The notes under the pieces were generated by a model, which worked only from the letters and a program-made list of their open reading frames with translations, had not been told where the DNA came from and searched no databases. This document shows positions 19,934 through 63,970 of a stretch of 64,000 nucleotides of DNA, piece after piece; position 1 is the stretch's first letter; every line of letters starts with the position of its first letter. Position numbers and translations under genes: made by a program. Source of the stretch: Kappaphycus alvarezii (taxonomy: Eukaryota; Rhodophyta; Florideophyceae; Gigartinales; Solieriaceae); assembly GCA_002205965.3 (NCBI GenBank), contig NADL03000640.1:310001-374000 (forward strand), in the 5' to 3' direction.

Positions 19934-20200
19934 TATAGCAAATTGCGATGGTCTCGACCCTTCCTTTGATGCTACTCTTGCAAACTTTATCCTTCTCTCG
20001 CCGCCGTCGTCCCTTCCTCAAAGTGCATTTTGCGATCTGCAGTGCGCATACACAGTAACTTTCAGAACAACCTCTTCGTGATCAACCATTCGTCTCACCG
20101 TGCAGCTTCAACTTTCTCAGACATTTAGTGACTGTCTTTTCACTCCCTGTCGCTGTCTTCAAGTCACATTTTGATTCATACCACATCACCATCTTCAGCA

Positions 20201-20929
20201 ATGGAAGCCAAACTACGTTCAATGTTGACCGATCTCTACAAGGAGATTCCGTGTATGCCGATCATGGTTCGGCTCGCCTGGCATGATGCCGGTAGCTATT
20301 CCGCCACCGACAACACGGCTGGAGCGAACGCCACCATTCGCTTCGCCCCTGAATCCGAATATGGTGCAAATGCAGGCCTGGGCAAGGCACGGAAGTGGCT
20401 CGAGCCCATCAAGGCTGCCTGTCCCGAGGTTTCGTACGCCGACCTCTTCCAGCTCGCCTCTATTGTCGCTATCGAATTTTCGGGCGGGCCGAAGATTCCG
20501 TTTGTCTTTGGCCGCAAGGATCAACCCGCAGAGGCTTGCTCTCCTGATGGAAGGTTGCCAGATGCTAACAAGAGGATGGGCCACTTGCGAGATATATTTT
20601 ATCGAATGGGCTTTAATGACAAGGAGATCATCGTTCTAAGCGGGGCGCATTGCCTAGGCTCTGGCCACAAGGATCGGTCTGGCTTCGAGGGTCCGTGGAC
20701 GAAGGACCCTCTCAAGTTTGACAATTCGTACTATCAGGAGATCCTCAAGGAGAATCCGGACCCGTCGCTCTTGCGACTGGCGTCGGATATGGCTTTGTTG
20801 GATGACCCCGAGCACAGGGCCCTCGTTGAGAAGTATGCGGCTGATCAGGACGCGTTCTTCGCCGATTACGTCCTTGCCCACAAGAAACTCAGTGAGCTTG
20901 GTATGGAGGTCCCGTCTACCCAGGCATGA
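20201..20929 (+). CDS. APX: Ascorbate peroxidase (cytosolic type), intronless
   Basis: This is a class I haem peroxidase that reduces hydrogen peroxide to water with ascorbate as electron donor. The 242-residue length matches cytosolic APX, and there is no transit peptide or membrane tail. The distal catalytic trio is in RLAWHDAG (Arg24, Trp27, His28). Asn57, which supports the distal His, is in GANAGL. The proximal haem ligand is His150 in LSGAHCLG, with Trp166 in FEGPWT and Asp196 in LASDMALL. The ascorbate-binding arginine (Arg172 of pea APX) is Arg159 in HKDRSGF. The lysine at pea position 30, also used in ascorbate binding, is replaced by Ile16. The cysteine at pea position 32 is kept (Cys18). 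ATG 20201 is chosen because the frame upstream has no other ATG and the family aligns from here. The gene is uninterrupted and lies tail to tail with the zinc-finger gene. The function is well supported; the organism is not. Confidence 0.96.
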   Translation: MEAKLRSMLTDLYKEIPCMPIMVRLAWHDAGSYSATDNTAGANATIRFAPESEYGANAGLGKARKWLEPIKAACPEVSYADLFQLASIVAIEFSGGPKIPFVFGRKDQPAEACSPDGRLPDANKRMGHLRDIFYRMGFNDKEIIVLSGAHCLGSGHKDRSGFEGPWTKDPLKFDNSYYQEILKENPDPSLLRLASDMALLDDPEHRALVEKYAADQDAFFADYVLAHKKLSELGMEVPSTQA

Positions 20930-27880: not shown

Positions 27881-27959
27881 ATCAGCATTATCGACAAAGT
27901 CAAAGACAGCATAGTAATCGTTCTTGACGACCTGATGACCGCACTGATGCCTTGATGGA

Positions 27960-30870
27960 TTCTACGGCGAATCGTTCCGCTACCGTCGAAGGGGCGGGGA
28001 CTGTTCTAGATGAGTTCTGCAATCAAGAAAGATGTAGCAGTGGGAGGGCGCTGGGAGAATCAAATGCCATCGGCTACGGCGAAAAGCTCGGTGCGGGTAG
28101 GGGGAAATCGGGGAGGTTGAGGGTTCGGCGGGCCAGTTTGCGGTTGTACTAGCGCATCTTTTTCCGGTGGGCGATCTCGGTAGCTCCTCCGACGACTTGG
28201 GTAGCCTTGATGCGGGAAGTAGATTTGAATGGGGGAACAATGGTTAAATCGCATGCCAGGGGCGGGAAGCGGTGTCGGTGGGTGGGCCCGGTGGCCGCAG
28301 TAGGATACTTGCCAAGCCGGAGCTCAGTGCCAAGAACAAGAAAGGGGGCTTGGAACTCCTACTCACGGCCAGCAGCGCAGAGTACGTTGAAGGTAACGTC
28401 GTTGTGGACAGAACTATGTTGGTAGAGTCGGCCGAAACCAGAAACTCGGAGATTGGCCGCATGGTCCCGTATGTATCCATCCGCTGGAAGCAGTCATGGC
28501 AAGTAAGCGGCGCGAAGTGCGGGTATACCGGAAGGTCAAGGTGCCATTGCGGCATTACAGTCCAGTTAGTGGAGGTGATGGTACCGTCTGTGGGATAAGC
28601 AGTAAGGACAGATGCAGTCGGGCTGTGCCCAAGGGCGAGATCCCGGATGCGGACGCCAACGCATGCTGCGTTGCACAGGAAGAGGGTGGGAGTGGAATCT
28701 CGATTGTCATCCTTCCAATGGTCTTTCGCCGTGGCGTCCCGCTGTACCCTGTTCAAGATAGTGAGGGTATTCCGGGGTGAAGCAACAAGAACATGTAGTG
28801 TGTAGGGCCGAGACCTGAAGAGTTTCCAGACACGGTGGCCACGAAAGAGCGGATGATGAGTTAAGCTTGGATGAGCAGAGAAATAAGGTCTGCAGGGCAT
28901 GGGTGTCCAGTAGTCGTGAGATTCGAGGCTTAGAGTATAGATCAATGCGTGCACGGTCGGGGCTGCGTAGTTTACCCTAGCAGCGATGATGGCAAGACAG
29001 GATGGGTGAATGGCGGAGACTCGTTGACCGCCCAGACGGACTGGGACGCAAGTTTAAAACCAGGCCTGGTGTGTGAGAGAGACGCCATTAACGGACTAGT
29101 AAGGGGTCCTTTGGAGGTCATCAAATTGGCCAGCAGCAGGATGAGAGTGCTGTTACGGGACAGAGGTGAAAGACGTAGGTCATGGGGTAGGCTGAGGCGT
29201 AGAGCCGATGCATGTGTAAGTGTACGCAATGGTCGTGGACATCGTGTAGTAAGCGGAGGGTGCCACAACAAGCGTCGAGTCTGGATTGGAAGGTGATGGT
29301 GAAGTCCTGATAACCGAGCGGCGCTCCAAGAGGTTGAAAGCCATGGTCGGTGCATTCGTCGGAGGGGATCTCACTGAAGGAAGGAAGAGTGAGCTTGGGA
29401 GGAAATGGAAGTTCAGTAAATGCGCGTTTTGCGCATATTGAGGTGCAGGCCAGCAGCTAGGCTGTGATCCTTGATCAATCGAATCGCAGTTCGAAGACCA
29501 TCAAATGTCCCAACGACGGTGCCGTCATCAGCAAACCACTGGAGGATTTCTGCGATCCCGATCCGGCGGACGTGGGGATGGTTTGAAAGGGAAAAGAACT
29601 ACATCCTGGCTGGGTACCGCTGTTTGTTACCCTGGAAACTATAGATCAAGGTATGCTGCTGGTTGGAGATTATCAGAATTGGTTGGAACATATTGATGAA
29701 ACGGGGCAAGGTCGGCGTACGGGCGGGGAGGAGGCCAATCATAGGCTGGCGGCCCACACAGGTTAAGGCACTGAGTGAATCGACCAGAACGGCTGCAGCC
29801 TTGGGGACTTGGGAGTCGGCTTGGAGGAGGAAGCACGTATCATGGACAATGGTATCTATGCCGGCTTTGAAGCCGTTTGCCAATTGGAGCGAAGCAAAGA
29901 AGTTCCGCGTGTCGTCGATGGCGACGTGGATCAAAGCTTTTGTCTCGACGCAACGGAATACCGAGCCAACAACGATGGGCCGAATCTTGTCCCGTCGGGG
30001 TTGGAGAGCGGCAGCAGTGATGAGAGAACAGGGACTGTGGGAGATTTCCAGAGGCGATGCGGTCCGCAAGCTGTGTGAGCGTCGAGAGCCCTGTGACACC
30101 TGCTTCGGAGCTAACGGAGGTCATGACGAGCAAGCGAAACCAACGTGAGTGAGTACGGTCAGGGCCTGCAACGGAGTCGCGTGAGAGCCGCTGCTCTGTA
30201 TGCGGAACGACATCCTCAGTGATGTGGGAGGGTGAGGCATGCTGGAGTCGGGGAGGGGGATGACAGTTCGAAGAGGAGAAGGATGAAGATCTTGGAGGGT
30301 CCGCAGAGTGCGTGGGTCGTTGACGTCCGCTACGGTAGGGTCGTGTAATAAGCGCATGCCTTTTCCGTAGCGTGCGTCGACTCAGGGCGCTGCAGCGGAT
30401 AGCAGTCGTGACAGGTCGTGCGGGAGGATGGTTTATCTGAAGCCACTCGGCGCGTTTGGAATGAGCACTGATCGATTCAGAGCAGAGAGCAGAACAGTGG
30501 TCCTAGTGCGGGCACGGCAGATACGTTCAGGTGAGGCAGCATGTTGTGCAACTTGGTCCCGGCGGCGCGGGTCGGGCCAGTGTGTGCGGCGGAGACGGCG
30601 GTGAGGACATGTGGAGAATTAGATGGAGTAGGCGCGTAGATGGCGTGAGGCTCACTTGCAAGGGCTTCGTCTCGGAAGAACTTGATGAAGAGCAGCACGG
30701 ATTTCATGCAGGTTCTAGGAATGTCCAGAGAAATGCCAGCCTTACACTACAGAGTGCGTCTCTGCAGATTTCAACTGTTGTGCTGCTGGACAAGTTTCCC
30801 TTCAGAAATCAGCTGGGACCCAGAGGTGAAGGGCTGGGTAAAGCTGCAGGGGAATCAACTTCAAGGTGAC
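27960..30870 (-). mobile_element. Long decayed non-LTR-type retroelement, copy A
   Basis: Read from 30870 downwards. 'IPRTCMKSVLLFIKF' (about 30730-30670) matches 'IPGFCMKPFLLLFSK' of the copy at 57.7 kb and marks the N-terminal domain. The RT starts near 30130 ('SSEAGVTGL'), with 'KIRPIVVGSVFR' in the fingers. Motif A is 'AVLVDSLSAL'. Motif C is 'QWFADDGTVVG', with its two Asp codons at 29529-29524. The C-terminal module has CHDC (first half of the knuckle) near 28500. At 28258-28222 it has 'ACDLTIVPPF', which keeps the acidic residue lost in the 60-kb copy. The end is near 27960. Numerous frameshifts and stops make it a dead copy. The family is an RT with a restriction-like-endonuclease-type C-terminus. 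Antisense frames of good length on the plus strand are shadows caused by high GC content. Confidence 0.8.
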
Positions 30871-31214: not shown

Positions 31215-31690
31215 CCGTGCTGCAATCAAGAGGGTATTGTGACCTTGTACTGCAGAGGGGGAAGAGACGCAACGTTCGTGCATATCATTTCTTGCGCGCT
31301 GCAGATTTGGATTTCATCAACTCGGGACCCCGCTCCTCATCCCTGGAACCAATTGGCGGCCAGCAGACGTCCTCATCCACCTCTCTCTCGCTCTCGCTGG
31401 CCCCCGGGAACGGCCCTTCGCCTGTGCAGTCGAATTTCTTTCGCAGTTTACATCAGTTGCCGTCACAACAGCTATGAAAGCCGCGGCTCTGCGCAGGCCC
31501 ACCAGCCCGAGGTCCTCATACTTTCCTCTGGCAACCTCTCCCCCACCCCGGCCTCCATTTCCAGCCTATGGCTTTCGACTCTCTAGGTTCGCCATCCCCG
31601 GCCACAACCTTTGTTCCAGAAGAGTGCACCGCGCATAATGGCCCGATACCACTCTTCCGCTGCTACGATTAGCACTCGCAGTTGTCAGCG
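31215..31690 (+). mobile_element. 3' fragment of the same retroelement family, copy C
   Basis: In shifting frames this encodes a knuckle/RHN-like start near 31230-31300, then 'YHFLRAADLDF', which matches 'YHVFGAAGLDYQF' of the copy at 32.3 kb. 'FQPMAFDSLGSPSPATT' (about 31560-31612) is the conserved C-terminal block. Everything upstream of the knuckle, including the RT, is missing. The insertion is oriented opposite to copies A and D. Confidence 0.65.
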
Positions 31691-31924
31691 CCTAGGCTCT
31701 GCTCATCAATTGCTATGATCGTCACAGCTCGGGCTCCACTGCTCAGAAATAGAGTCAACGCCCGCTATGCACAGCATACAACTTTTCTTTAGTCATTATG
31801 TCTGAAGCGGTACACAGACTGACCGACTATTTAGTCAAGATCTAGCTGGATGGTTCAAGTCGATCACGTGCAGTTGAGCTCGAGACATGATGGCAGTGCA
31901 CAACTAAAGCGCTGGTGGATGCGT

Positions 31925-32860
31925 GTGCGAATCGTGGCAGCGGTGGCGTAATAGCGGGCCGCAATGTGCGGTACGTACTCCTCTAGAAACCAGAAGGTGG
32001 CCGCGGATGGCGCACCAAGAGAATCAAAGGCGATGGGTTGGAAACGGAAGCCCGGGTCGCGAGAGAGGTTGTCAGAGGGCGGTATCAGGCGGCGGGAGAG
32101 CTTTCGATCGGAATCCTGGAACTTTTGTCGGGAGGCCTGGGTAGCGGCGCCTGCAGCGGCTTTCCTCGTTGGTGTTATAGAGGCAGATGTATATGGCGAA
32201 GCAATTGTGACGCCTCAGGCAATGGGCCGCTCCCGTAGTCCAACGGGAGGAAGAGGGCGGTGGACAAGCAGGTCTGCTGGTCGCGGACCGGTGCCAGGTA
32301 TAAGGAGAGAGGTCTCGAATTGATAGTCTAAACCTGCAGCGCCAAACACATGATATATGAGGACGTTGCGGACGGAGTTGTGGCGGTGGATGCGGCAAAA
32401 GCCCGAGGGGCAGATGTCAGCAGCGTTGTCGCCAGAGATATCAACGGCATGCAGCGTCATCGAGTCTGTGTAAGCTGGAATCCCGAGATGTCAACGCAGC
32501 ATTATGCTCTAATGTGCACCAGTAGCTTTCGTTGCCGTAGCCGTACGCGCGTGGAGGAAAGCGGCGGCGGCAGTGTTTCGAAAAGCGAGCCCGCGGATCT
32601 GGTGGCGAGTACGTTGAGGACTGGCAGCAGATGGGGTGGGTACATTCTTCCAGAGAGCATCCTGCCAGAACACCTTAGCCTTGGCCTCTTGCCGCACCCT
32701 ATTTAAATTTGTATGAAGGTTGCCCGGTGTAGCTGCGAGGGTAGCAGGTTCATAGGTGCCTAGGTCGTGTACAGGTTTACCACTGACGTATTGGACAAAG
32801 TCACGCAGTCGCAATCCGGCTTGAGCGAGGACAGGTCCCCGCGGAAATGTTTGCATGTTG
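31925..32860 (-). mobile_element. 3' fragment of the same retroelement family, copy D
   Basis: From 32856 downwards it reads 'LAATPGNLHTNLNRVRQEAKAKVFW', shown here only to locate the block equivalent to 'LAASPSNTLSILNSVQQDAKARVHW' in the 59.7-kb copy (the match covers roughly 32690-32620). It is followed by 'GDNAADICPSGF', 'RIHRHNSVRN', 'GTGPRPADLL' (32300-32275) and 'VTIASPYTSA'. The Cys-Asp expected before VT is TGA-GGC (stop-Gly). The end carries 'AFDSLGAPSAATF' near 32030. There is no RT. Confidence 0.75.
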
Positions 32861-32999
32861 TGCTCTTCGACGCGTTATCTGTAAATGACTGTCCTGTAAT
32901 GATGCTGTTGTAGGTTCAAGAAGGTACGATTGTAACCATCTTAGCTCACGGCTGGTTACTGTCTGGCCGGTCGTGCCTTTTCAAGGCCTCTTTGTCTAC

Positions 33000-33470
33000 G
33001 AAGATTCGGCGAAGCCGATCTAGTGCCATCAGTGCCACGCCCGGAGGCACCCTCGCGGCGACCGTGCCTCTATTTGCAAGTCTGGTTTTGGTGTTGTGCA
33101 CCGCCACAACACCAAACGTAATTTTTCCACCAGACATGAATTCAGCCCGCCAGTCTCCCGTGCCAACAGAAGGTCCCCTTCTCCCCGGTGCTGCCTATCG
33201 ACCTGCTGATATCCTTATTCAACCCTACCCCCAGTTCATGGTGCCCCTCCGGACAAACCCACCGCACATGTTATTACGGTTCAATACCCGCTCGTCCGTG
33301 GCTCTCTGCGCTATGAAGCAAGGCAATGTCCTGGTGCTGCCGAACTCGCCGACGGCGCCAAACGTCGGTCACATCGTCAGATGTTCCGTAGCGCGATCTG
33401 TTGTCCACTTCCACGCATCTGTCCCCACATGTCCAATAGCATTCTATTCCATTAGCGTTTGATACACTCG
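33000..33470 (+). mobile_element. C-terminal fragment of the same retroelement family, copy F (5' part)
   Basis: At 33023-33077 the knuckle reads CHQC...GDRASIC, so the histidine of the C-x2-C-x9-H-x4-C pattern is replaced by arginine. 'GVVHRHNTKRN' follows at about 33084-33118. 'GPLLPGAAYRPADILIQPY' (about 33170-33225) keeps the acidic RPxD motif. The DxT motif and the FDSLG end are not found before about 33470. A plausible continuation of the C-terminus lies at 34780-35120, beyond a Tc1-like element. Confidence 0.65.
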
Positions 33471-33799
33471 GTACCCTGTCCACCCGTTCGCGTCAAGTTC
33501 TCATAGGACACCAAACGTTCCCGCTTTATCTAATCTCTTCATGAGGTTAAACATAATATGTTTCCCACTAAAATCCAGCCGAACGCCCTCCTTGAAGTCT
33601 GCGGCAGACACAATGCCGAGAGATTGTCAACTCAACGAGACCGACCGTTCTCAGGCATCCGCTCTCAAGCAGGCAGGCCACTCCCTTTCCGCATTTCCAA
33701 AACAGCTTCATCGTTCGTGAAATGTCATTCGGTCCTTCCTTGCCAATCCCTTGGCGTATGCGACCAGGAACAAGCGAACAAATCGATGGAAGAATACAA

Positions 33800-34605
33800 T
33801 CGGAGATGAGCGTAGGTTGATCTGAGTAGCATCAAATTCAACAAAAAACGTTAGAGTTATCTGCAGCGAGCTTCAGTTGCCCATTTCTGCGAGCTGAACC
33901 TGTGCATATCTTAACGGTAGCATCAATTTGCGGTATAAACGGGTTATATGTCAGCCTCCTTTGACGGTGAGTTATCGAGAAGCCCGCGTCGAATGGGCGA
34001 GGCAACACGCAATGAAAGGATATGGCTAGTGTGGACGTGTGGTGCTTAGTGACTAGAAGATGTTTAACTATAATGGACCGGATGGCTTAAGGAGCTATTG
34101 GCACGACCCAGGAAAGAAGAGTTCGTGGTTTTAAAGCGTCAACACGGCGGTAAAGGAATCATGGTTTGGGCAGCGTTTTGCGATTTTGGTAGACTAAGCT
34201 AGGTCAAGTAAGATCTCGGCTAAATGGACAGGAGTATGTGAAGATGTTGGAGAGGGAGCTACTGTAGCGGGCAGACGATAATTTGCCAGCTGAATGGGTC
34301 TACCAGCAGGGTAATGCCCCTGCTCATGCTTCCTCGGTTGCTAAGGAATGGTTTAAATCCCAAAGAATCAAGGATATGAAGTCGCCCGCAAGGTCTCCAG
34401 ACCTCAACTATGTAGAGAATCTGTGGGCATATTGCCTCGAGAAGTCCACGCAAGGAACCGCCAGTTTAGCCCTACTTCTTAATGAATGAACTGTATCAAC
34501 CTTTGTTGGAGCTCAATCGATGATACAATCACTAAACGACTCGCTTAATCTATGCATAAGCGTTGCGTGGATGTCATTTCTAGGCAGGGAGGTGTAATAG
34601 GTTAT
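33800..34605 (+). mobile_element. Decayed Tc1/mariner-like transposase, copy T1
   Basis: The second helix-turn-helix region is suggested near 33840-33930 ('SELQLPISARTV' in shifting frames). 'PPLTVSYREARVEWARQHAM' (about 33957-34016) matches the region just before the catalytic core. The first catalytic Asp is in 'LSD*KMFNYNGPDGL', with the Glu of SDE changed to a stop. The block 'SYWHD...GGKGIMVWAAF' follows. The second catalytic position is Gly in 'QQGNAPAH' (34310-34312), where active enzymes have Asp. The third is intact in 'SPDLNYVENLW'. The end 'SMHKRCVDVISRQGG' reaches about 34590. Terminal inverted repeats were not found. Confidence 0.75.
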
Positions 34606-34779: not shown

Positions 34780-35120
34780 TGTACAAATGTGGCCGAATCT
34801 CTTAATGGCGGGGGTGTCTTATGGCATCAGTCACCAGTGCACATACGTGTACTGTGGTATACCGTTTGCTGTCGGCGACAGCTCCTACTGTATTCTCCCG
34901 CATGCGTCGTTTCATAGCGAGCTTCCCAAACCGAGAAATGGGATGGAAGTTTGTGCTGTTAGTCTTCGACTCGCTTGGATCGCCGTCTGCAACGACGTCG
35001 AAGGTAATCGACGAATACGCGGCCACTATCGCAACCCGCAGCGGATGTTCGATGGAAGGAGTGAAGACTCGGCTTTACCAGCAGCTTGGTCGATTTAGTA
35101 CACGTGTACCGCGTCTGTAG
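34780..35120 (+). mobile_element. C-terminal fragment of the retroelement family (possible 3' part of copy F)
   Basis: The frame 34821-35120 contains 'GWKFVLLVFDSLGSPSATT' (about 34941-34998) and 'VKTRLYQQLGRF', matching the extreme C-terminus of copies C, D and E. Orientation is the same as copy F at 33.0-33.47 kb. The two pieces would be neighbours if the Tc1-like element between them were removed. Confidence 0.6.
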
Positions 35121-54139: not shown

Positions 54140-54910
54140 TAGTTATGTATTATGCCTCCATTGGCCTAAAAACTTTAACGCACCGATTGGGTGTCGACTT
54201 AATTACCTTTTGCAGCATTTGGTCTTTGATTTTTGCCCAGTCTTCGTCAATTTCCACTTTAAAATCAGAAAATATGTCAAACTGCCTCCAATTACTGTTA
54301 ACAGGACGTGCTAAAAAACCCCACAGGTTCTCGATATGGTTAAGGTCAGGGGACCGAGCAGGTCAATTCATTACAGTAAGGTCCTTCTCAGAAAACCATG
54401 CCTTTGTTTGTTCAGACATATGGATTGCATAACTTTGCTGATGCACCCAATCAAATCCATGGTTAATGGCCGCAAAATCTAGTAAATTTCTTTCCAAAAT
54501 ATTTCAGTAACTTGCGGACACCTGCCTTGTACTCCGATAGACAACTGGACTCTTGTCAAAGTAAGAGAAACAAGCCCAAATGATAACTGAACCGCCAACA
54601 TTTTGACACGTATCCAATAGCCTCTCTCCTGTACGAAAATCATGCCAGAACTACTTAAAATAGTCTGGGCCATCTAAATTAAACCTTTCATCTGAAAAAT
54701 TATTTTCTTCCAGTCATTGAATCCATTGCCCAATATCTCCGAATCCCAATCAATTCTTGCTTTTTGCGAACTGCGTATTGCTGTAAGGCACGGAGCACGT
54801 TTGAATTTCTTGTACACAATAGTACTGCTTGCACGTACAGTGCGCCTAATAAATATAGAAACATCCCGATTTCTGAGTTCTGTACACTTGTCACAGCCCC
54901 TGTCGTAAAA
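54140..54910 (-). mobile_element. Decayed Tc1/mariner-like transposase, copy T3
   Basis: Read from 54910 down. 'RNRDVSIFIRRTVRA' is a second-HTH region. 'FSDERFNLDG' carries the first catalytic Asp (about 54698-54669), followed by the 'GGSVIIWACFSYF' block. 'WVHQQSYAIHM' (about 54447-54415) has lost the second Asp (QQD is QQS with a frameshift). 'SPDLNHIENLWGF' keeps the third residue, with the Glu codon at 54332-54330. 'DWAKIKDQMLQK' lies near the C-terminus. The first HTH and the left end are missing. It is about 80 percent similar by eye to copy T4 and lies head to head with it. Confidence 0.8.
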
Positions 54911-55107
54911 GAATAATCTAGAAAGGCGTCTCAGTCGGATAGATTAATAACAGCAGGGAAGATTTGCAACGGAATGGTATCTGGGCGATGTAATAGCAAT
55001 AATCCATTTTATAAACGGATCATAAATATAGAAACTATAGACATGTTGTAAAGAAAGTAAAATTTAAGACCTCTTACAATAGTAAAGTACTCTGCTATAC
55101 ACATTAA
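54911..55107. other. Spacer between copies T3 and T4
   Basis: No feature is recognised. The sequence is AT-rich and probably contains the missing or eroded start of copy T3. Confidence 0.4.
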
Positions 55108-55135
55108 ATAAACAATACCGACTGCAACCAGTATC
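55108..55135 (+). repeat. Left terminal inverted repeat of T4
   Basis: ATAAACAATACCGACTGCAA opens the 28-bp repeat. It matches the right arm at 56428-56455 at 25 of 28 positions. The start codon lies 61 bp inside. Confidence 0.85.
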
Positions 55136-56427
55136 TAAACGGCAAAGAACGACGAATACCCATAAAAAATGCCTCGCGGAAAGTCACTCACGGATCAAGA
55201 GAAAGGGAAAATTATGAGGATAAGGTTTGCCGGGAGAGAATTAATCCTATCGCATCGACAAAAAATCGCTCTAAAAAGATGGTGTGGATATTTATTCAAG
55301 CCCCGGAGAAATATGGCAAATTGAAACGCAGCGTACGCCCGCCAAAAGTATCTCCGCTGAAAGAAGGCATCTACTAAGAAAGGCACGCAGAGGTGACGAA
55401 TCCGCGGATAGCTATGCACCGCCTTGGATTTGCCAATAGGGAAGAAGAAAGTGCAGCAGATATTACGTGCGACAAGTATTCTTACGTGTAAGAAGAGTAA
55501 ACATGTTCCGCCCTTACCGCAGCCCATAAAAAAGCAGGACTTGATTGGGCTACCTAGAAGGTGGGCAAAGGACTGAATGATTGGAAGAAAGTTATTTTTC
55601 AGATGAAAAAGGTTTAATTTAGATGAGCCAGACGGTTTAAAGTATTACTGGCATGACATTCGTAAGAAAAAGAGGCTATTAGCTCAGCGCCAAAATGAAG
55701 GCGGTTCAGTTATGATTTGGGCTTGCCTCTCTTGCTTTGACAAGTGTCCAGTTGTTTATTTGAATGGAGGGCAGGTGTCTGAAAGATACTGAACGACATT
55801 GGAGAATCATTTGTTAGATTTTGCGGCCATTAACCATGGATTTGATTGGGTGTTTCAGCAGGATAATGCCCCTATCCATGTGTCTCAGTATGCATTAAGG
55901 CATGGTTTTCTGAGAAGGACGTTACTGTAATCGATTGGCCAGCACGGTGCCCAGACCTAAACCCAATCGATAACTTATGTGGTATCCTGGTGCGAGCTGT
56001 TTACAGTAATGGAAGATAAATTGACTTAGTTTCAGCTTTCAAAGTAGTAATTGACCAAGAATGGGCCAAAATCGAGGAAAATATGCTTCAGAAGTTCAGT
56101 AACACCGTCTGTACCCTCTTACTGCTTATTTTCAAATCGAGAGTAGTGCAGAACTTTCCCGCAGATTTTTCTCCCTTGCGCGCCTCTCTCAGTAGATACA
56201 ATCTGTCAGCGGGGGCATTTTGGGGGACGACCGCTACGTTTCTCCTTACAATACTTCCCGGGGGTTTGGATAAATGCCAGACTACTTTCTTGGAGTGATT
56301 AATCTTCGAGGCGATCGAATCATTGCTCTCCCCGGCACCTCTCATCCCCACGATTTCTCCTCTTCCTGATCCGTGACGTGCCGCGAGGCATTTTGTTGAT
56401 GGGTATTCGTCTTCTCTCTAGAGTATG

Positions 56428-56455
56428 GACACTAGTTGCAATCGGTATTGTTTAT
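56428..56455 (-). repeat. Right terminal inverted repeat of T4
   Basis: On the minus strand it begins ATAAACAATACCGATTGCAA. The inverted transposase start lies 64 bp inside, almost the same spacing as on the left. GACGAATACCCAT is also shared just before both start codons. Confidence 0.85.
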
Positions 56456-57539
56456 GCATATTGTACAATAGCATAGTGTTATATTTACTAATTAATTTTC
56501 TTCAATACTTGAAAAGGGCCACTAAAGTAAACTAGCTTTGGAGCGGGAGGCAAACTTCTAGCATAGTTGTACAGTATGTTGGTTTTACGAGGTGTAAGTT
56601 CTACATTTCTTAAAACGTCTTCTCCCTACCACCACTGACGCCCTCTCTCCCACAACTCTGCCACCTCTGCACCCTCCCGCTTCACAATGCTCCATTCCCT
56701 GAGCTCGCTCCAATCTTGGACTCGTACGCCTCCGCCGGCGAACTCCGCTTCTTCCCCAGCAAAATCGCCGGCATGCAAACATGCTTCCATTTGCTCCAAG
56801 GCCCCTCTTACATTCTGCGTGCAGATTGCTCGCGCCGTCCAATCCCACGCTGACACCCTTTATGCCTCCTGTCGAGCCCCTGCTGTGCAAACCCTCCTCA
56901 TGATCCCTCCCTAGCGACCAACCCTTCCCCTCCTTTGACCACCGAGAAACACTCCACCCCTGCTGACACCCTCCGTCCCGCTCCCGCCTGTCGGTAGCCC
57001 CGTGCCCAACCCTGCCGCTTTGTTTTCCGCTCGGACAAATCCAAACCCCTCGGCTGCCGCTGTCGCTCGACCTCGCGCTGCTTGTATCCTAACTGCTCCG
57101 TCCCTCGCCTCTCCCAGCACTCCCCCAAGAACCACCCATTCGCTCACCTCCACCTCCACCTCGTGACCGTCGAGTTAAGCCTGCCCCCACAGCAACACCG
57201 CCTGCACAGGCTCTGCTACCCGCCACATACATCTACCAAATCCTCCTCCAAAGGCCCGCCGTTGCAAGCATTCCAAGGTCCTGTAAACCCGCGCCCATTC
57301 CGCCAAAGTCCGCATCCCCTCACTGCCTAACCAAAGCCGGACACAAAGCGCAAAAACGGACCCAGCGCCATAAACGCGGCCTCTGCTCAGGTCTCTACTG
57401 CCGCCGGCAGTCTGGACTAGGCAATCGGCACCAAAGCGGACCTTTCCGCCGCCCCAACGTCGGACTCCTCTGCCGTCCATGGCTCCACCAAGGATGCGTC
57501 CCTATCAATCGTTCCGGACGCTGCCCGCGACCACCTCCG

Positions 57540-58112
57540 ATGGCGACGCCGCCCCCCCTCCCTCCCACCGCCCAACAACTGGTAACCATCATGCTTAGCA
57601 CTCAACATATTCCTATCCCCGTCCCCCCACGAGATCCATACACGGCAGCTACCCTGGCTCCGCTGCCCATGCTTGACCTGCCAAGCCCCATTGACGTACT
57701 TCGCACGCCATATCGAGAAGGTGATATCTTTCTCGGCATTCCTGGGTTCTGCATGAAGCCATTCCTTCTCCTCTTCAGCAAGCTCATCCGGGACGCTACC
57801 TTCGCCCTTGAGCCCTCGATAATCCAACGCGCCTTTCTCCTACTCCACATGCTCCCCACTGCCGTCCTCCGCCGCACGCTCCGGTTTGAAACTGGCCGGC
57901 GTCACCGAGAAACCCAGCACGCGGCTTTAGCGGAACGGATCCGTCGTGCTCATAATGGTACTCAATGGGCAGCCCTCTGTTCCGAGGCCCCTTCCGCCCT
58001 CCAGCCCCTCCCGACGTATCTGCTGCCCGACGTTCGCGCCGCACCGAGGCGCTCTGTGCTGATGCGCGCCACGGTAAAGCCATGCGTGCTCTGCACAATG
58101 CCCGCTAGCTGA
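57540..58112 (+). pseudogene. N-terminal domain of the copy E polyprotein
   Basis: The 190-codon frame has a Pro-rich start. It continues with 'IPGFCMKPFLLLFSKLIRD' (about 57737-57793) and 'HMLPTAVLRRTLRFETGRRH', an Arg-rich helix. The first block recurs in copy A on the minus strand near 30.7 kb, so it belongs to the element and is not a host gene. In related RTs this region precedes the fingers domain and probably binds RNA. The frame ends before the RT, where a frame change is needed. Confidence 0.65.
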
Positions 58113-58309
58113 CTTGAACGACTCGCAAACGCTACAAGCGCTTCGAGCGCTTTGCACCGCTCCGCAACAGCCCATCATCCCTCTTCCTGCCTCTACCCTC
58201 CCCTCCCCCGCTCTCCATCACCGAAGCCACCGTCGTCTGCGCCACGCGGAGCATCTCATCGGATACCGCTGCAGGGCCTGAACTCACCTTCTCCAGATAG
58301 TTCCATCTA

Positions 58310-59110
58310 TTGGTCAAGACCGCTGTCAGTTCCGAAGCCGGTGTGACAGGGCTTGCTGTCCTCACCAAGCTGGTTAACCACATTGCTTCGGATGGCCTAC
58401 CCGAACCCGTTCTTCCCCTTATTGCCGTTGCCACGCCGCTACCGCTCCAAGTCCGGACAAAAATCAGGCCCATTGCCGTCGGCTCAGTCCTCCGAAGACT
58501 TGTGACAAAAGCGTTGCTGCCTACTGCCATCGATGATTCGAGGACTTCCTCTCTCCGTACCAAATGGCGAATGATATCAAAGCCGGGATGGACGCCGTGG
58601 TGCACGATACGAGCCCCCTCCTCCAAAAGGTCTCCCACCTCCCTAACGTTGCGGCCATACTTTTCGATGTCCGAAACGCATTCAACCCAGTGCACCGGCA
58701 AAAATTGCTGAACCTTCTACCTTCCCATACACCCACCCTGGCTCGTTTTATGAATATGATGTACAGCCGTTCCCAACCACCCTTGCTGGTCCCGAACCGC
58801 CAACGCACGCTGATCCCCAGCGCCCAGGGCACCCAGGAGGGAGCCATGCAGGCATGCTCCCGTTTTCGCTAACCATTAATTCCCTCGTCCGCCAAATTGC
58901 TGGCTCCATCAACGTTCTTTTCAATCAATGGCTCGCCGACGATGGCACCCTAATCGGGTCGCTTGATGATCTTCGCACTGCTCTCAAGTTGATCCAGTGC
59001 CACATCCCCGCTGTCGGCTTTTTCCTCAACCTACACAAAACTCGGATCTTCTGGCCACACCCCGCCCGCTCCGTCTTCCGCCATGACTTCCCCTCGAAAA
59101 GGCACGGATG
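58310..59110 (+). pseudogene. Reverse transcriptase domain of copy E
   Basis: Three overlapping frames together cover the domain. 'TKIRPIAVGSVLRRLVTKAL' (about 58457-58516) is the fingers motif typical of non-LTR-type RTs. Motif A is 'AAILFDVRNAFNPV', with the catalytic Asp codon at 58666-58668. 'AQGTQEGAMQACSRF' is the eroded motif B, which in this class reads GxxQGDPxGxxLF. Motif C is 'QWLADDGTLIGS', with the Asp pair at 58938-58943. 'FFLNLHKTRIFWP' follows, as in motif D. All three catalytic aspartates are present, but frame changes near 58560 and 58850 disrupt the protein. The ADDGT form is unusual compared with YxDD. Confidence 0.82.
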
Positions 59111-59186
59111 AAAGATTCGAACTATTAGGTGCCCCTCTCGGCGACTCTCACTTCACCAATTCACTCCTTCAAGCTCAAATCGAGGA

Positions 59187-60395
59187 TTGCCAGAACACCA
59201 TTCACATGCTCCATGGCATGCGCGACCCGCGTGCACGTTTCCACATGCGTCGCCTTGCGCCTCGGCCTATCTCGTGGCACATGCTTTTTGCCTGGCTGAC
59301 CCGCAGCACTCTTCGAGCGCTGCTCTCCAATTCGACGACCTTCAAGGGACCTCATACAAGTCCCTGAACGGCGTCCCACTAGCGAGTGGGCGTGGGTCCA
59401 GGCTTGCATCCCTACACGGCTGGTGGTCAGGGTTTCTCCGCTGTTCACCCTCGCTCCAAGCCGCTACCGCCTCCAGTATCATTGATTCGGGCCCTGCCCG
59501 AACTCGCACCGCTCGGTACTCAATACCCCGCACTTCTCGGCTGCTCGGGCACCCATGCTATGCCGCCCCCGATTCCCTCCTTGTACAAGCTGAACCGCTT
59601 CTACGATCTTTCCTCGCTACGACCCCCGACTACACGTCATCCTTGGACTTTGGCCCCTACGCCCCGAGTGTCCTTGCTGCCTCACCCAGTAACACTCTTT
59701 CCATCCTCAACAGTGTGCAGCAGGACGCTAAGGCCCGGGTCCACTGGAAGGACGAGGACTGGAACGCCACTCCCTCACCAACCCAACACAGTGACGCGGA
59801 CATACGCCTTCGCATTCACGGAATCGCCTTCCGTCAACGCCCTGCCGCTGCCTTCCTTACCGCCCACCCCACCGACTGCACCGCTATCCCCGCCACCCAC
59901 TGGACAGCGATGCTTAGGCCCTACGTCGGCCTCAATGTCTTCCACGAGAGCCCGCCACTAACATGCCCCCATTGCCGCAGACCAATGGACGTCTTTGGAG
60001 ACCACGCTGTTGACCTCTGCTCCTCTGGTTTTGGGAGACTCCACCGTCATAACTCGGTTCGAAACGCACTTGGGTTCCACGTGTTCCGCGCTGCCGGACG
60101 TGAATGGGAGTTCGAGGCCCCCTTCCTCGTCCCTGGAACCGAGCTTCGGCCTGTGGACATTCTTCTCCAGCCCTCATCCTCTCCCTCCTCGTCCGACTCC
60201 CGCCCCCTCGCGTGTGGTATCACCACTGTCTCCCCTTTCAAGTCAACCACATGGACAAAGGCCACCCAATTCGGTGGCAGTACCGTCGAGATCGCCCGTC
60301 GTGACAAAATTCGCGACCTCGAGTGCAAAATGGCCCCCAGACCTCTCAATTTCCCGCCCCGTCGCCTGCCACCACTGGCCTCATTGATGCGTTAA
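59187..60395 (+). pseudogene. C-terminal knuckle and endonuclease-like module of copy E
   Basis: The long open frame is meaningful from about 59560 on; its first 120 codons are read in a frame different from the RT linker. 'CPHCRRPMDVFGDHAVDLC' (59964-60020) is a C-x2-C-x9-H-x4-C knuckle. 'LHRHNSVRNALGFH' follows, then 'GTELRPVDILLQP' (Asp codon 60156-60158) and 'ACGITTVSPF', where other copies have ACDLT. In restriction-like endonucleases of R2-type elements a knuckle precedes an R-x-P-D and a D/E residue; the match in order is good. Here the second acidic residue is Gly. The true C-terminus, 'PSPATTGLIDALTRSMARRF' and 'RRRIYQRL', lies in another frame to about 60480. Confidence 0.75.
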
Positions 60396-60500
60396 CACGC
60401 TCCATGGCACGCCGCTTCTCCACGGGCATTGGTACGGTTCGCCGCAGGATCTACCAACGCCTTTGCGCTACCATCTGGTCGTCAATGACGATGTCTACCT

Positions 60501-61084
60501 TGTCCCCAGCCCCGTTGCACGCCGCTGACTTGGCGTATCCGGTGACTTCCTAACTGAGGGGCGATCTATGAATCGTTGATGGTTCGAAACCGGACATTGG
60601 AAACGTCGGTAGTTTCCATACTTTCAACATTTTCACAGCCTGCTGTAGTCTATGAAAATTGGAAATGAGTTTTGCATATTACCTCAAATGCCCATCACCG
60701 GTTAATCGGGCTAGTTTGTGCAGGTACAGGTGTTGGTGGAGAGTCATCTTCGGGTAATTCCGTCAATAAGCGGGGCTGCGAGATTCGAGGTGGACAGTGG
60801 TGCGGAATAGATGACGATGGTTGGTCTAGCTGGAATCGGGAGGGACGCACAAGACAAGCCTGACCACAGTTTTGGGGATTCAACTCATGACTTCTTTGTC
60901 AAGGAAGTTTTGGATTTCCCCTGTAGTGGAATAGATTTCCCGTAGTAGAAATCGTGACGGGACAGGTGGACTGTATTTACTGACCGAAATTGCCAGATTT
61001 ATCCGATTTCATATTTTCCAGGGATTTCACTTTCATAGATCGGCCCTGAAACGTCGCATAAAGTTAGAATTTCTTTCAAGTTTG
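60501..61084. other. Flank of copy E, no gene recognised
   Basis: The short frames at 60672-60863 on both strands are complementary and have no motif. The 3' untranslated end of copy E probably lies here, but no poly(A) or other tail marks it. Confidence 0.4.
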
Positions 61085-61145
61085 CAGTGTACAGTACTAC
61101 ACAAACGCGTTAAAATAAAAGATTCATAACAGTACTGTACAGTGA
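61085..61145. repeat. TACTGTACAGTA repeats
   Basis: GTGTACAGTACTAC (about 61087-61100) and ACAGTACTGTACAGTG (about 61129-61144) belong to the GTAC palindrome family and lie about 30 bp apart. Confidence 0.8.
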
Positions 61146-62270
61146 TTGCGGTCAGTCATTCACGATTTAAGCCGTCCATTTGTCTAACGCTGCCACCCTT
61201 CAACTTTCGCTGCAGCGATCTTATCACACCCCAGCCCCACATACCTTGCCAGAAGATCTCACAGCAACCAAGTCTCAGCCCACACGTCACACCCTCCGGC
61301 ATTGTGGCGCCCCAACCAACGACCTCCACATCCCGTAACCCAAAGCCCTCCCACACATTCCCAACCATCTCCACAGCCTCCAATTCTCGCGCCGCGCACA
61401 TCCACTCCTAAACCAACCTCCTCAACGCGCACTCAACCCCGTAAGTCTAAGCCGAGCCGTTTCTCTACCACAGCCCTGGTTGCCCCGAGACAACTGCCGC
61501 ACACTGCGCACCCTGGCAACCCAACATAACAGCCCGATATATTGTAGTGCCTGTCGCAGCAAGCCTGTCTGCACCTTTTTACTTGTCGATACTCGAGCAG
61601 CCATGCACCCCAAGAATATTGTTCCACACTTCCGGCCTCGCGTGTCAACAAGCGGATACACTCCCGCACTACGATACCGGTCATCACGCGCAGAAATTAG
61701 CGCCCGAACATGCGCTTTCTCCAGCATGCATTCCGGACCGACTTGGACATTGCAGAATCACAGCACACGTCTCCTATACCCTCGCCACCCTCGCCACCAT
61801 ACTGCATACCGCATTACAGCGTACTTTTCGCGCCGCGCTCGCAGGTGGAGACCAATGCTGAAAGTACTGCGGAATGGATGCGCTTTGTACCGCAGTCTTC
61901 TGAAGTTTGACGTGTCAGTCTCGAAGGTTTGTGATGCGTTGTGCACGGACTTTGCAATCGCGTTGCTTTGCAACTCGTGTGGTGTTGGGTGGTTGCGCAA
62001 GCGCATCTGCAAGATATTTTGCTGCGCCATGTGGTCTGTGGTCGTGTTGCAGTTGTTTGTCGTGCTTTCACCCTAGGGTATTGGCTTGTTGCCGGACGTG
62101 AACGTGTACTCTTGAATACCGAAAGATGATTGTGCGCAGTGGTCCAGCGTTGAGTTGTGAAATGGACCGGGAAGTGTGTGGCTGCTGTTGAGGTGTCAGG
62201 CTGGCCTTGGTTTTTTGGTAGTGCTTCGGTGCATGTGTATATTCTAGTCTGCCAGTTCACGTAAACCCTA
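61146..62270 (+). mobile_element. GC-rich region, probably 5' part of a rearranged retroelement copy G
   Basis: A 198-codon frame (61480-62076) and overlapping frames lie in GC-rich DNA just upstream of a family C-terminus. 'YCSACRSKPVCTF' and 'HPKNIVPHF' near 61545-61650 resemble the Cys/His-rich start of copy E. The RT is missing, so the region would be an internally deleted copy. No other homology was recognised. Assignment to the family is inferred from position, composition and this weak match. Confidence 0.35.
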
Positions 62271-62279
62271 TTACTCTCG

Positions 62280-62985
62280 ATGCTCTTCTTTCACCTGCTG
62301 AACCACTTTCAGTATACGATCTTTCCACATCGCATTCCCTGGTTACGCGTCATCACTTGACCTTGGCCCCTCGACTACGTGCTGGCTGCCTTACGCAGTA
62401 ATACTTTCTCCATCCCAAACAGGGTGCGTGATGCCCAGACCCGGGCCAATGCGAAGAGCTACGAGTGGACCACCACTTCCACAGCCTCCGGTTTCCCCCG
62501 AGAGCCCGCTATTCACTCGCCACCACTGCCACAGACAGGTGGACGTATGCGGGAACCACACTACAAACTTCTGCCTATACGGTTTCAACAGACTCTACCG
62601 TCACAACTCTGTCCATACCGCGATTGCATTCCATTTGATCGGCACTACCAAACATGATTGCATGTTCTCCTTCATCCGTGACGCCATCCTGCGACAGCAA
62701 AGTTTTTTTTGCGGCCCTCTGAAGCCCCACACCACGTCCTCTTTCTCCGACACCCGCTCTACAGCGTCCAACATATTCATCTTCAGCCCATGAAGATACA
62801 CTACACGCACAAAGGCGACACGGTTCGTTGATGGTACCGGTTTCATGGCCCGTAATGACAGGATTCGCGACCTTAATCGCAAACAGGCCGGCAAACTCAT
62901 GAGTTCCCCTCAACGGCCCTACACCTTCACCGAATTTTACCTAGCTGTGCATGGCCTTTGATTCTCTGGGCGCCCCATGACATGC
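62280..62985 (+). mobile_element. 3' fragment of the retroelement family, copy G
   Basis: 'LAALRSNTFSIPNRVRDAQT' (about 62382-62441) matches the LAASPSNTLSILNxVQ block of copy E. The knuckle 'HHCHRQVDVCGNHTTNFC' (about 62510-62563) has lost its first Cys. 'RLYRHNSV' follows. 'TRTKATRF' and 'ARNDRIRDLNRK' match the 'WTKATQFGG...RRDKIRDLECK' segment of copy E. 'CMAFDSLGAP' near 62950-62980 is the C-terminal block, followed by a stop. It has the same orientation as copy E and lies about 2 kb downstream. Confidence 0.72.
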
Positions 62986-63970
62986 CACTACTTGCCTGCT
63001 TGATGATTTGGCGCGCCCGCACTTTCGGCTGCCGCTTTTTTACGAATGCTGATGCGGTTTGCCGCGGGTCCTATCAACACTGTGGTTGTGTCGTTTGATG
63101 GTCTCTAGCAATGGTGGTTCTATTTCGGGCGGCTTTCCGTATCTTTCGTATGGCACATGCTGTTGGTTTCGAATTGCAAGGCCAGCTTGATCAGTGCACT
63201 TACAAACGAGCTGGTCGCGGTGAATCGAAACGAATCTGAAAAGTGTGCCATGGTGCTACTGCAATCTTGAAAATGAATAATACAGTACTGTACCGTACAT
63301 ATTCAGGGTAAGATTCCGTCATTGGGCGTCTCTTTGCAAAATTGTACTGGATCCAAATTTGGTTGGACCTAAATTACCCTGAATTACGACAGCTTGTCCG
63401 ATGCGTGATGTAGAGGTACGGTATTGTGCAGTACAGGGCTGTGGAGGATTCACGTCCTACACAAATGCAGATGCGGATGCAGATACAGTAGTTGCGTGCG
63501 GTAATGGGTAAATTAGGTGGATCTGTAGAGGTTTTGCGACTTTTTCGGGGGTGCATTCGTAAAGGTAGTTATTCTTTCAGGTTATAACCAATGTTTTTGC
63601 TCCAAGCAACAAAGCTCTGGCTTGAGAAATAGCGCGAGAACTTTCGGCCTGTAGGACGGTAAGGAGTTTGTACAAATTGCCCCACAGTGGGAAGTAGAGA
63701 TGTATGCCGGAACGGAATTGGTTCCCCGACCAAGTCGACCGGAGTTGTGTGCATGGCGAGGGTGCGAGTGCGAGTGCGAGTGCGGGTGCGGTATCATACA
63801 TGAGTGGACAGCACATGAAGGTGTGAGGCCGAAGCGGTGTTGTTGATGTTGGGATTTGGCGATGAGAACGGCTTGCAAATATCTCCACACAGAGCACATC
63901 AACGAGCTGCGGTGTACTGTGGGACTGTTTTGGGTACAGCGCTGCACATGTACAGTACGGTATTGATTTC
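62986..63970. other. Mixed repeats, no gene recognised
   Basis: Frames at 63577-63987 (-) overlap one another and contain a low-complexity Ala-Leu-Pro stretch caused by the hexanucleotide repeat at 63757-63792. GTAC-palindrome units occur at 63281-63298, 63416-63436 and 63948-63963. No known protein motif was found. Confidence 0.45.
63757..63792. repeat. GAGTGC hexanucleotide microsatellite
   Basis: Four to six units of GAGTGC with degenerate ends (GAGGGTGC, GGGTGC) are tandemly arranged. A related GCAGATGCGGATGCAGAT tract lies near 63464-63484. Confidence 0.9.

Follow-up and report, generated by a model that had tools for sequence, protein, structure and literature searches.

We report that a family of GC-rich sequences in the red alga Kappaphycus alvarezii very probably consists of fossil copies of a non-LTR (long terminal repeat) retrotransposon, or LINE, of the type that carries a restriction-like endonuclease (RLE). 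The window analysed is a stretch of 64,000 nucleotides (assembly GCA_002205965.3, contig NADL03000640.1, positions 310,001 to 374,000), within which all positions below are counted. The presumed mechanism of the element is R2-like, and the element is not established as R2 itself. Its reverse transcriptase (RT) and RLE are homologous to those of related elements, the domains follow one another in the R2 order, the copies are decayed, and the protein was under selection in the past. A C-terminal signature that had been left unassigned is very probably the nuclease of R2-like LINEs, so that a new retroelement class need not be invoked.

The focal copy, copy A, lies on the plus strand at about 57.1 to 60.5 kb, in a C-rich stretch that starts near 56.6 kb. 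Over 56600-60540 the GC content reaches 0.596, compared with values of 0.422 and 0.437 for two flanking stretches. The coding strand shows a strong excess of C (0.39) over G (0.21) over the same interval, and the skew is reversed (C 0.21, G 0.35) in the region 27900-30500, where a minus-strand copy, copy B, lies. The parts of copy A are as follows.

57093 to 58109, plus strand: stop-free open reading frame (ORF) of 339 aa, probably the upstream portion of the element's protein.
58253 to 58528, plus strand: RT piece a, with RPIAVGSVLRR at 58466-58498 and one in-frame stop (E 2.9e-6 with a six-relative profile, 0.014 with a three-relative profile).
58540 to 58866, plus strand: RT piece b, with FDVRNAFN at 58663-58686, which holds the motif A Asp (profile E 2.3e-9; tblastn with L036 8.5e-8, with L027 1e-7).
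58854 to 59108, plus strand: RT piece c, with LADDGT at 58932-58949 and LNLHKT (profile E 7.4e-14; tblastn with L027 1.3e-12).
59089 to 59361, plus strand: region after the RT motifs (start of the thumb or linker), in a shifted frame (tblastn with copy B, E 6e-8).
59112 to 60392, plus strand: ORF without stops that covers the linker, the CCHC knuckle and the RLE (RLE profile E 7.6e-5).
59964 to 60020, plus strand: the CCHC knuckle, C-x2-C-x9-H-x4-C (CPHC..H..C), read from the sequence.
60045 to 60065, plus strand: RHNSVRN, counterpart of the RH(N/D) motif of R2 by alignment.
60147 to 60164, plus strand: RPVDIL, counterpart of KPD of R2 (first catalytic acid) by motif order.
60216 to 60218, plus strand: Gly at the site of the second catalytic Asp (DxT), aligned with Asp in L027 and copy B.
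60306 to 60308, plus strand: Lys aligned with the catalytic Lys site of the RLE.
60386 to 60526, plus strand: C-terminal tail in another frame (tblastn with copy B, E 9e-5; the tail of copy C matches 60356-60496).

The motifs, positions and knuckle spacing that the first-pass annotation had given for this copy agreed with the coordinates when checked. It had also credited the copy with all RT catalytic Asp residues: three are present and the RT is of non-LTR type, but they are spread over different frames. The reading frame of copy A changes five times across the three RT pieces, the middle region, the C-terminal ORF and its end. WLADDG starts at 58929, and piece c matches Pfam RVT_1 with an E of 0.0029, below the Pfam cut-off. 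The stretch at about 57740-57860, in the N-terminal ORF, resembles the part of copy B around 30700, a likeness judged by eye alone. An LTR element, for which the annotation had likewise seen no terminal repeats, was rejected for want of direct repeats: none of at least 20 nt (12-nt seed) was found in 56000-61500, a search that diverged repeats could escape.

The relatives used for comparison were obtained with the RT motif QQGDPLGP as a pattern in a collection of bacterial and archaeal genomes. It gave 91 stretches, of which seven were kept by reading as RT ORFs (L027, L036, L049, L058, L063, L081 and L094) and 84 were taken for chance. In a collection of viral sequences no relatives were found, the four stretches matched being read as chance. 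The records of the seven are titled as bacterial metagenome-assembled genomes (Verrucomicrobia, Spartobacteria, Curvibacter, Clostridia, Granulicella twice, and Hyphomicrobiaceae); they are probably eukaryotic-type retroelement contigs misplaced in these assemblies, which would thereby contaminate reference genomes. RT-RLE proteins that carry RPIAxG, QQGDPLGP, RHN and RPAD occur commonly in genome assemblies of algae, protists and fungi. Six of the relatives have ORFs of 1078 to 1841 aa, in which the RT is followed by a cysteine knuckle, an H(N/D) site, a block with an acidic residue and a G motif; those of L036, L058 and L094 are open at the contig end on the 5' side. In the seventh, L049, there are runs of N and the RLE was not seen. 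The relatives share with the window family the RT motifs RP(I/V)(A/C), NAFN, QQGDPLGP and DD and, in six of the seven, the knuckle, H(N/D) and an RLE-like end, but differ from it in that L058, L063, L081 and L094 have no clear RPAD. The nearest is L027, with 38.6 percent identity over RT piece c (tblastn 1.3e-12).

A profile built from L027, L036 and L058 was run against the window and, as a control, against 20 random windows matched to it in local composition. It detected the RT of copy A (7.4e-14 and 2.3e-9), the RT of copy B (2.6e-6) and the RLE of copy A (7.6e-5), against best control values of 0.089 for the RT and 0.031 for the RLE. When the RLE copies of the window were aligned with hhalign, they scored 37.2 against the three nearest relatives and 22.5 against R2, the best of 60 column shuffles reaching 15.8 and 17.2, respectively. 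Chance resemblance is disfavoured by both the random windows and the shuffles. The hhalign probabilities are low (61 percent for the three relatives, 4 percent for R2, 28 percent for all six relatives), and the RLE alignment of the three relatives itself scores 16.8 against R2, a point on the opposing side; we therefore place the weight on the RT, the shared order of motifs and the shuffles.

Other results also weigh against the interpretation. With six relatives the RLE profile is weak (copy C 0.0081, the stretch around a short tail fragment, G, 0.019, copy A 0.048; best control 0.082), and the control for another query, the search with the L027 zinc fingers, once reached 2.9e-4. The profile of the relatives' knuckle and RLE stretch alone is weak on R2 (E 0.81 for 9nl2, 170 for 9nl3). 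Two structure models are of low confidence (mean pLDDT 47.7 and 48.0) and are of L027 rather than of the window, with R2 matched at a root-mean-square deviation of 6.6-10.5 A. The window RLE ORF and RT pieces b and c, searched alone with phmmer, retrieved nothing relevant in the PDB; these pieces are too decayed for such matching. Finally, the second catalytic acid (DxT) is Asp in one of the five copies that reach it (B), and is replaced by Gly in A and C, Asn in D and Ala in F. Decay may account for these substitutions, or they may be characteristic of the family, and broken copies cannot tell which.

Copies were sought by tblastn with the pieces of copy A against the 64-kb window, and later with the tail of copy C. 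The first search gave five more copies, B to F, with best E values per copy from 4e-52 to 1e-6, and the second added fragment G, so that the annotation's estimate of at least five further fragments was borne out by six.

27904 to 30187, minus strand: copy B, from RT to C-terminal tail, broken, keeping CDLTI (tblastn and profile).
31297 to 31745, plus strand: copy F, RLE fragment with RPADVL, and FDSLGSPSPATT in another frame (tblastn E 1e-6 over 31297-31479; copy C query 4.7e-19).
31867 to 32832, minus strand: copy C, linker to C-terminus, with RHNSVRN, RPADLL and FDSLGAPSAATF (tblastn E 5e-48 over 32089-32832, the rest by reading).
32976 to 33225, plus strand: copy E, fragment with knuckle, RHN and RPADIL (tblastn E 1e-7).
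34905 to 35111, plus strand: fragment G, C-terminal tail with FDSLGSPSATT (copy C tail tblastn E 3.3e-10, missed with copy A pieces; RLE profile of the relatives 0.019 over 34806-35117).
62314 to 63025, plus strand: copy D, a fragment of the linker and RLE in which RHNSVH and FDSLGAP are read (tblastn E 3e-23, with weaker pieces to 62916; tail piece 62930-63025).

Weak tail matches at 61975-62037 (E 0.002, out of order for copy D) and 33425-33481 (E 0.10) were left out. Copies F and C (31297-32832) stand tail to tail, and their 3' parts match to about 31820. A Pfam RVT_1 search of the host genome gave 10,224 candidates, and none of the best 150 (E 3.5e-36 or less) lies inside the window.

Amino-acid identity is 0.40-0.55 in codon-aligned segments (A-B, A-C, A-D and C-F, stop codons dropped). 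The proportion of synonymous differences (pS) exceeds that of non-synonymous ones (pN) in all eight segments, with summed values of 0.683 and 0.326 for A versus B; the copy lineages therefore diverged while coding. Purifying selection of this kind would also be expected of a domesticated or host gene, and an RT-RLE core is present in the host protein Prp8 according to an excerpt of PMC5678591. Against such an origin, which we consider extremely improbable, seven copies or fragments lie within 64 kb in both orientations; stops or frameshifts interrupt copies A to F, G is a short fragment, and several copies consist of the 3' part alone.

The motifs of the nuclease are kept unevenly among these mobile-element copies. 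RHN is present in four of the five copies that reach the site (A, C, D and E, not B). The string RHN[S/T] occurs at seven places in the window, four of them in copies, and on its own would prove little about membership of the family. RP(A/V)D is found in four of six copies (A, C, E and F, not B or D), and the catalytic Lys in three of five (A, B and C), with Arg in D and Ser in F, perhaps out of frame. Of the RPxD...DxT module claimed for the family, RPVDIL stands in copy A, but the Asp of DxT is retained in B alone. Similarly, the FDSLGxPSATT end is real in that FDSLG occurs in copies C (32028, minus strand), F (31574, plus), D (62957, plus) and G (34965, plus), but it is not in the focal copy, which has a SPATT-like piece in another frame. 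The complete set, RH with PD...D...K, is seen in relatives L027 and L036.

Could the knuckle merely resemble the RLE region of an L1-like LINE carrying an apurinic/apyrimidinic endonuclease (APE)? In such LINEs the linker also ends in a CCHC knuckle (PMC5678591, in excerpt), and when the RT of the relatives was searched against the PDB, L1 ORF2p was the next match after R2. This origin is nevertheless very unlikely: beyond the knuckle, the RHN, RPxD, K and G motifs are found in the window and in the relatives, and the RLE model of L027 matches the nuclease region of R2. The N-terminal ORF of copy A, whose frame is decayed, has no Pfam match, to APE or otherwise, and its likeness to the N-termini of the relatives is not significant. 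C2H2-like strings occur on the N-terminal side in the window, and homology to the zinc fingers of L027 was considered and rejected: they look alike by eye, but the best E of 0.28 is not significant against the best control.

If the RLE-type LINE worked as R2 does, a single protein would bind both its own RNA and the genomic target. The C-terminal RLE, with its first acid in RPxD, its second in DxT and a downstream Lys, would nick one DNA strand, and the freed 3' end would serve as the primer from which the element RNA is copied, that is, target-primed reverse transcription; both nicking and priming are proposed by analogy with R2 biology. The group of elements using this reaction is of practical interest for gene insertion.

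The position of the family among RLE LINEs was approached with unrooted RT trees of short fragments (pieces b and c), in which R2 and L1 were the only named references. Copies A and B group together (1.0 and 0.942), and in the piece c tree the window copies join L027 and L036 (0.845; support 0.11 for piece b). R2 splits off with L1 (0.994 for piece b, 0.879 for piece c), apart from the window copies and relatives. We think it somewhat likelier than otherwise that the family is an ordinary member of a named clade (for example NeSL, CRE, R4/Dong, HERO, Utopia or Dualen), a view compatible with the RLE LINE interpretation and differing on the clade alone. Named-clade RLE LINEs share the RT, the linker with a CCHC knuckle and the RLE (PMC5678591 and PMC4640811, both in excerpt); against this placement, the trees set the family apart from R2, and the window has no U2 small nuclear RNA (snRNA) or rRNA match that would support a Utopia- or R2-type target. 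No rRNA or U2 snRNA family reached the gathering score in the window, where the element ends are unmapped and a short flank of rDNA might have escaped detection, and at E of 1 or less there was no U2 snRNA either, the sole match being an unrelated microRNA model (E 0.49). It is rather doubtful that L027, L036, L049, L058, L063, L081 and L094 make up, together with the window family, a deep-branching clade of RLE LINEs that is distinct from R2 and has no name yet (RPIAxG / QQGDPLGP / DDG type), with the second RLE acid possibly changed or lost in the lineage of this host. Such a clade, if real, would extend the diversity known among RLE LINEs and offer further candidates for target-primed reverse transcription. 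No description of the signature was found in the literature, searched by clade and host words rather than by motif.

Directly beside copy A, 54199-55456 and 55529-56455 are mutually inverted copies (77 and 71 percent identity). A minus-strand reading near 56091-56417, with no Pfam match, resembles what we take to be a Tc1-type helix-turn-helix. On the plus strand at 34202-34500, a reading with QQGNAPAH and ARSPDLNYVENLW resembles the catalytic part of a Tc1-type transposase. An intact-looking single-exon ascorbate peroxidase ORF occupies 20132-20926 (best PDB match 1e-76, cytosolic ascorbate peroxidase); with the assembly size of 336 Mb in 884 contigs, it points to a eukaryotic host.

Among known systems, Utopia, the U2-targeting RLE LINEs of oomycetes, amoebae and animals, has the same general architecture, described in an excerpt of PMC4640811 as N-terminal fingers, RT, one finger and RLE. 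It was compared by description rather than by sequence, and unlike it the family stands in a window with no U2 snRNA match, although some Utopia families insert outside U2 snRNA genes (PMC4640811, in excerpt). The published knuckle spacing in RLE LINEs is CX2-3CX7-8HX4C (PMC5678591, in excerpt); that of copy A is one residue beyond this range and is still taken as the CCHC knuckle that precedes the nuclease. The closest comparison is with R2 (R2Bm 8gh6, R2Tg 9nl3/9dou and Platysternon R2 9nl2), the best PDB match of the relatives in sequence and fold. The relatives differ from it in their RT motifs, RPIAxG-like and QQGDPLGP against RPxxIG and KQGDPMSP in 9nl2 and 9nl3. The resemblance to R2-like elements with restriction-like endonucleases that the first-pass annotation had noticed is backed by the profiles and, at low model confidence, by the fold. 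Its further view that the FADD/LADD box, the RHN block and the FDSLG end make an unassignable signature did not hold: the R2 proteins in the PDB carry FADD, RHN, KPD, DVTV and a GARGKW end at places corresponding to the window motifs, and PMC5678591, in excerpt, describes as common to RLE LINEs an RH pair, a catalytic K set at a distance and, after the last strand, a GxW motif. R2 and the family share an ADD box, a CCHC knuckle, RH(N/D), (K/R)PxD, DxTx (with its Asp in copy B alone), K and a G-rich end, in the same order.
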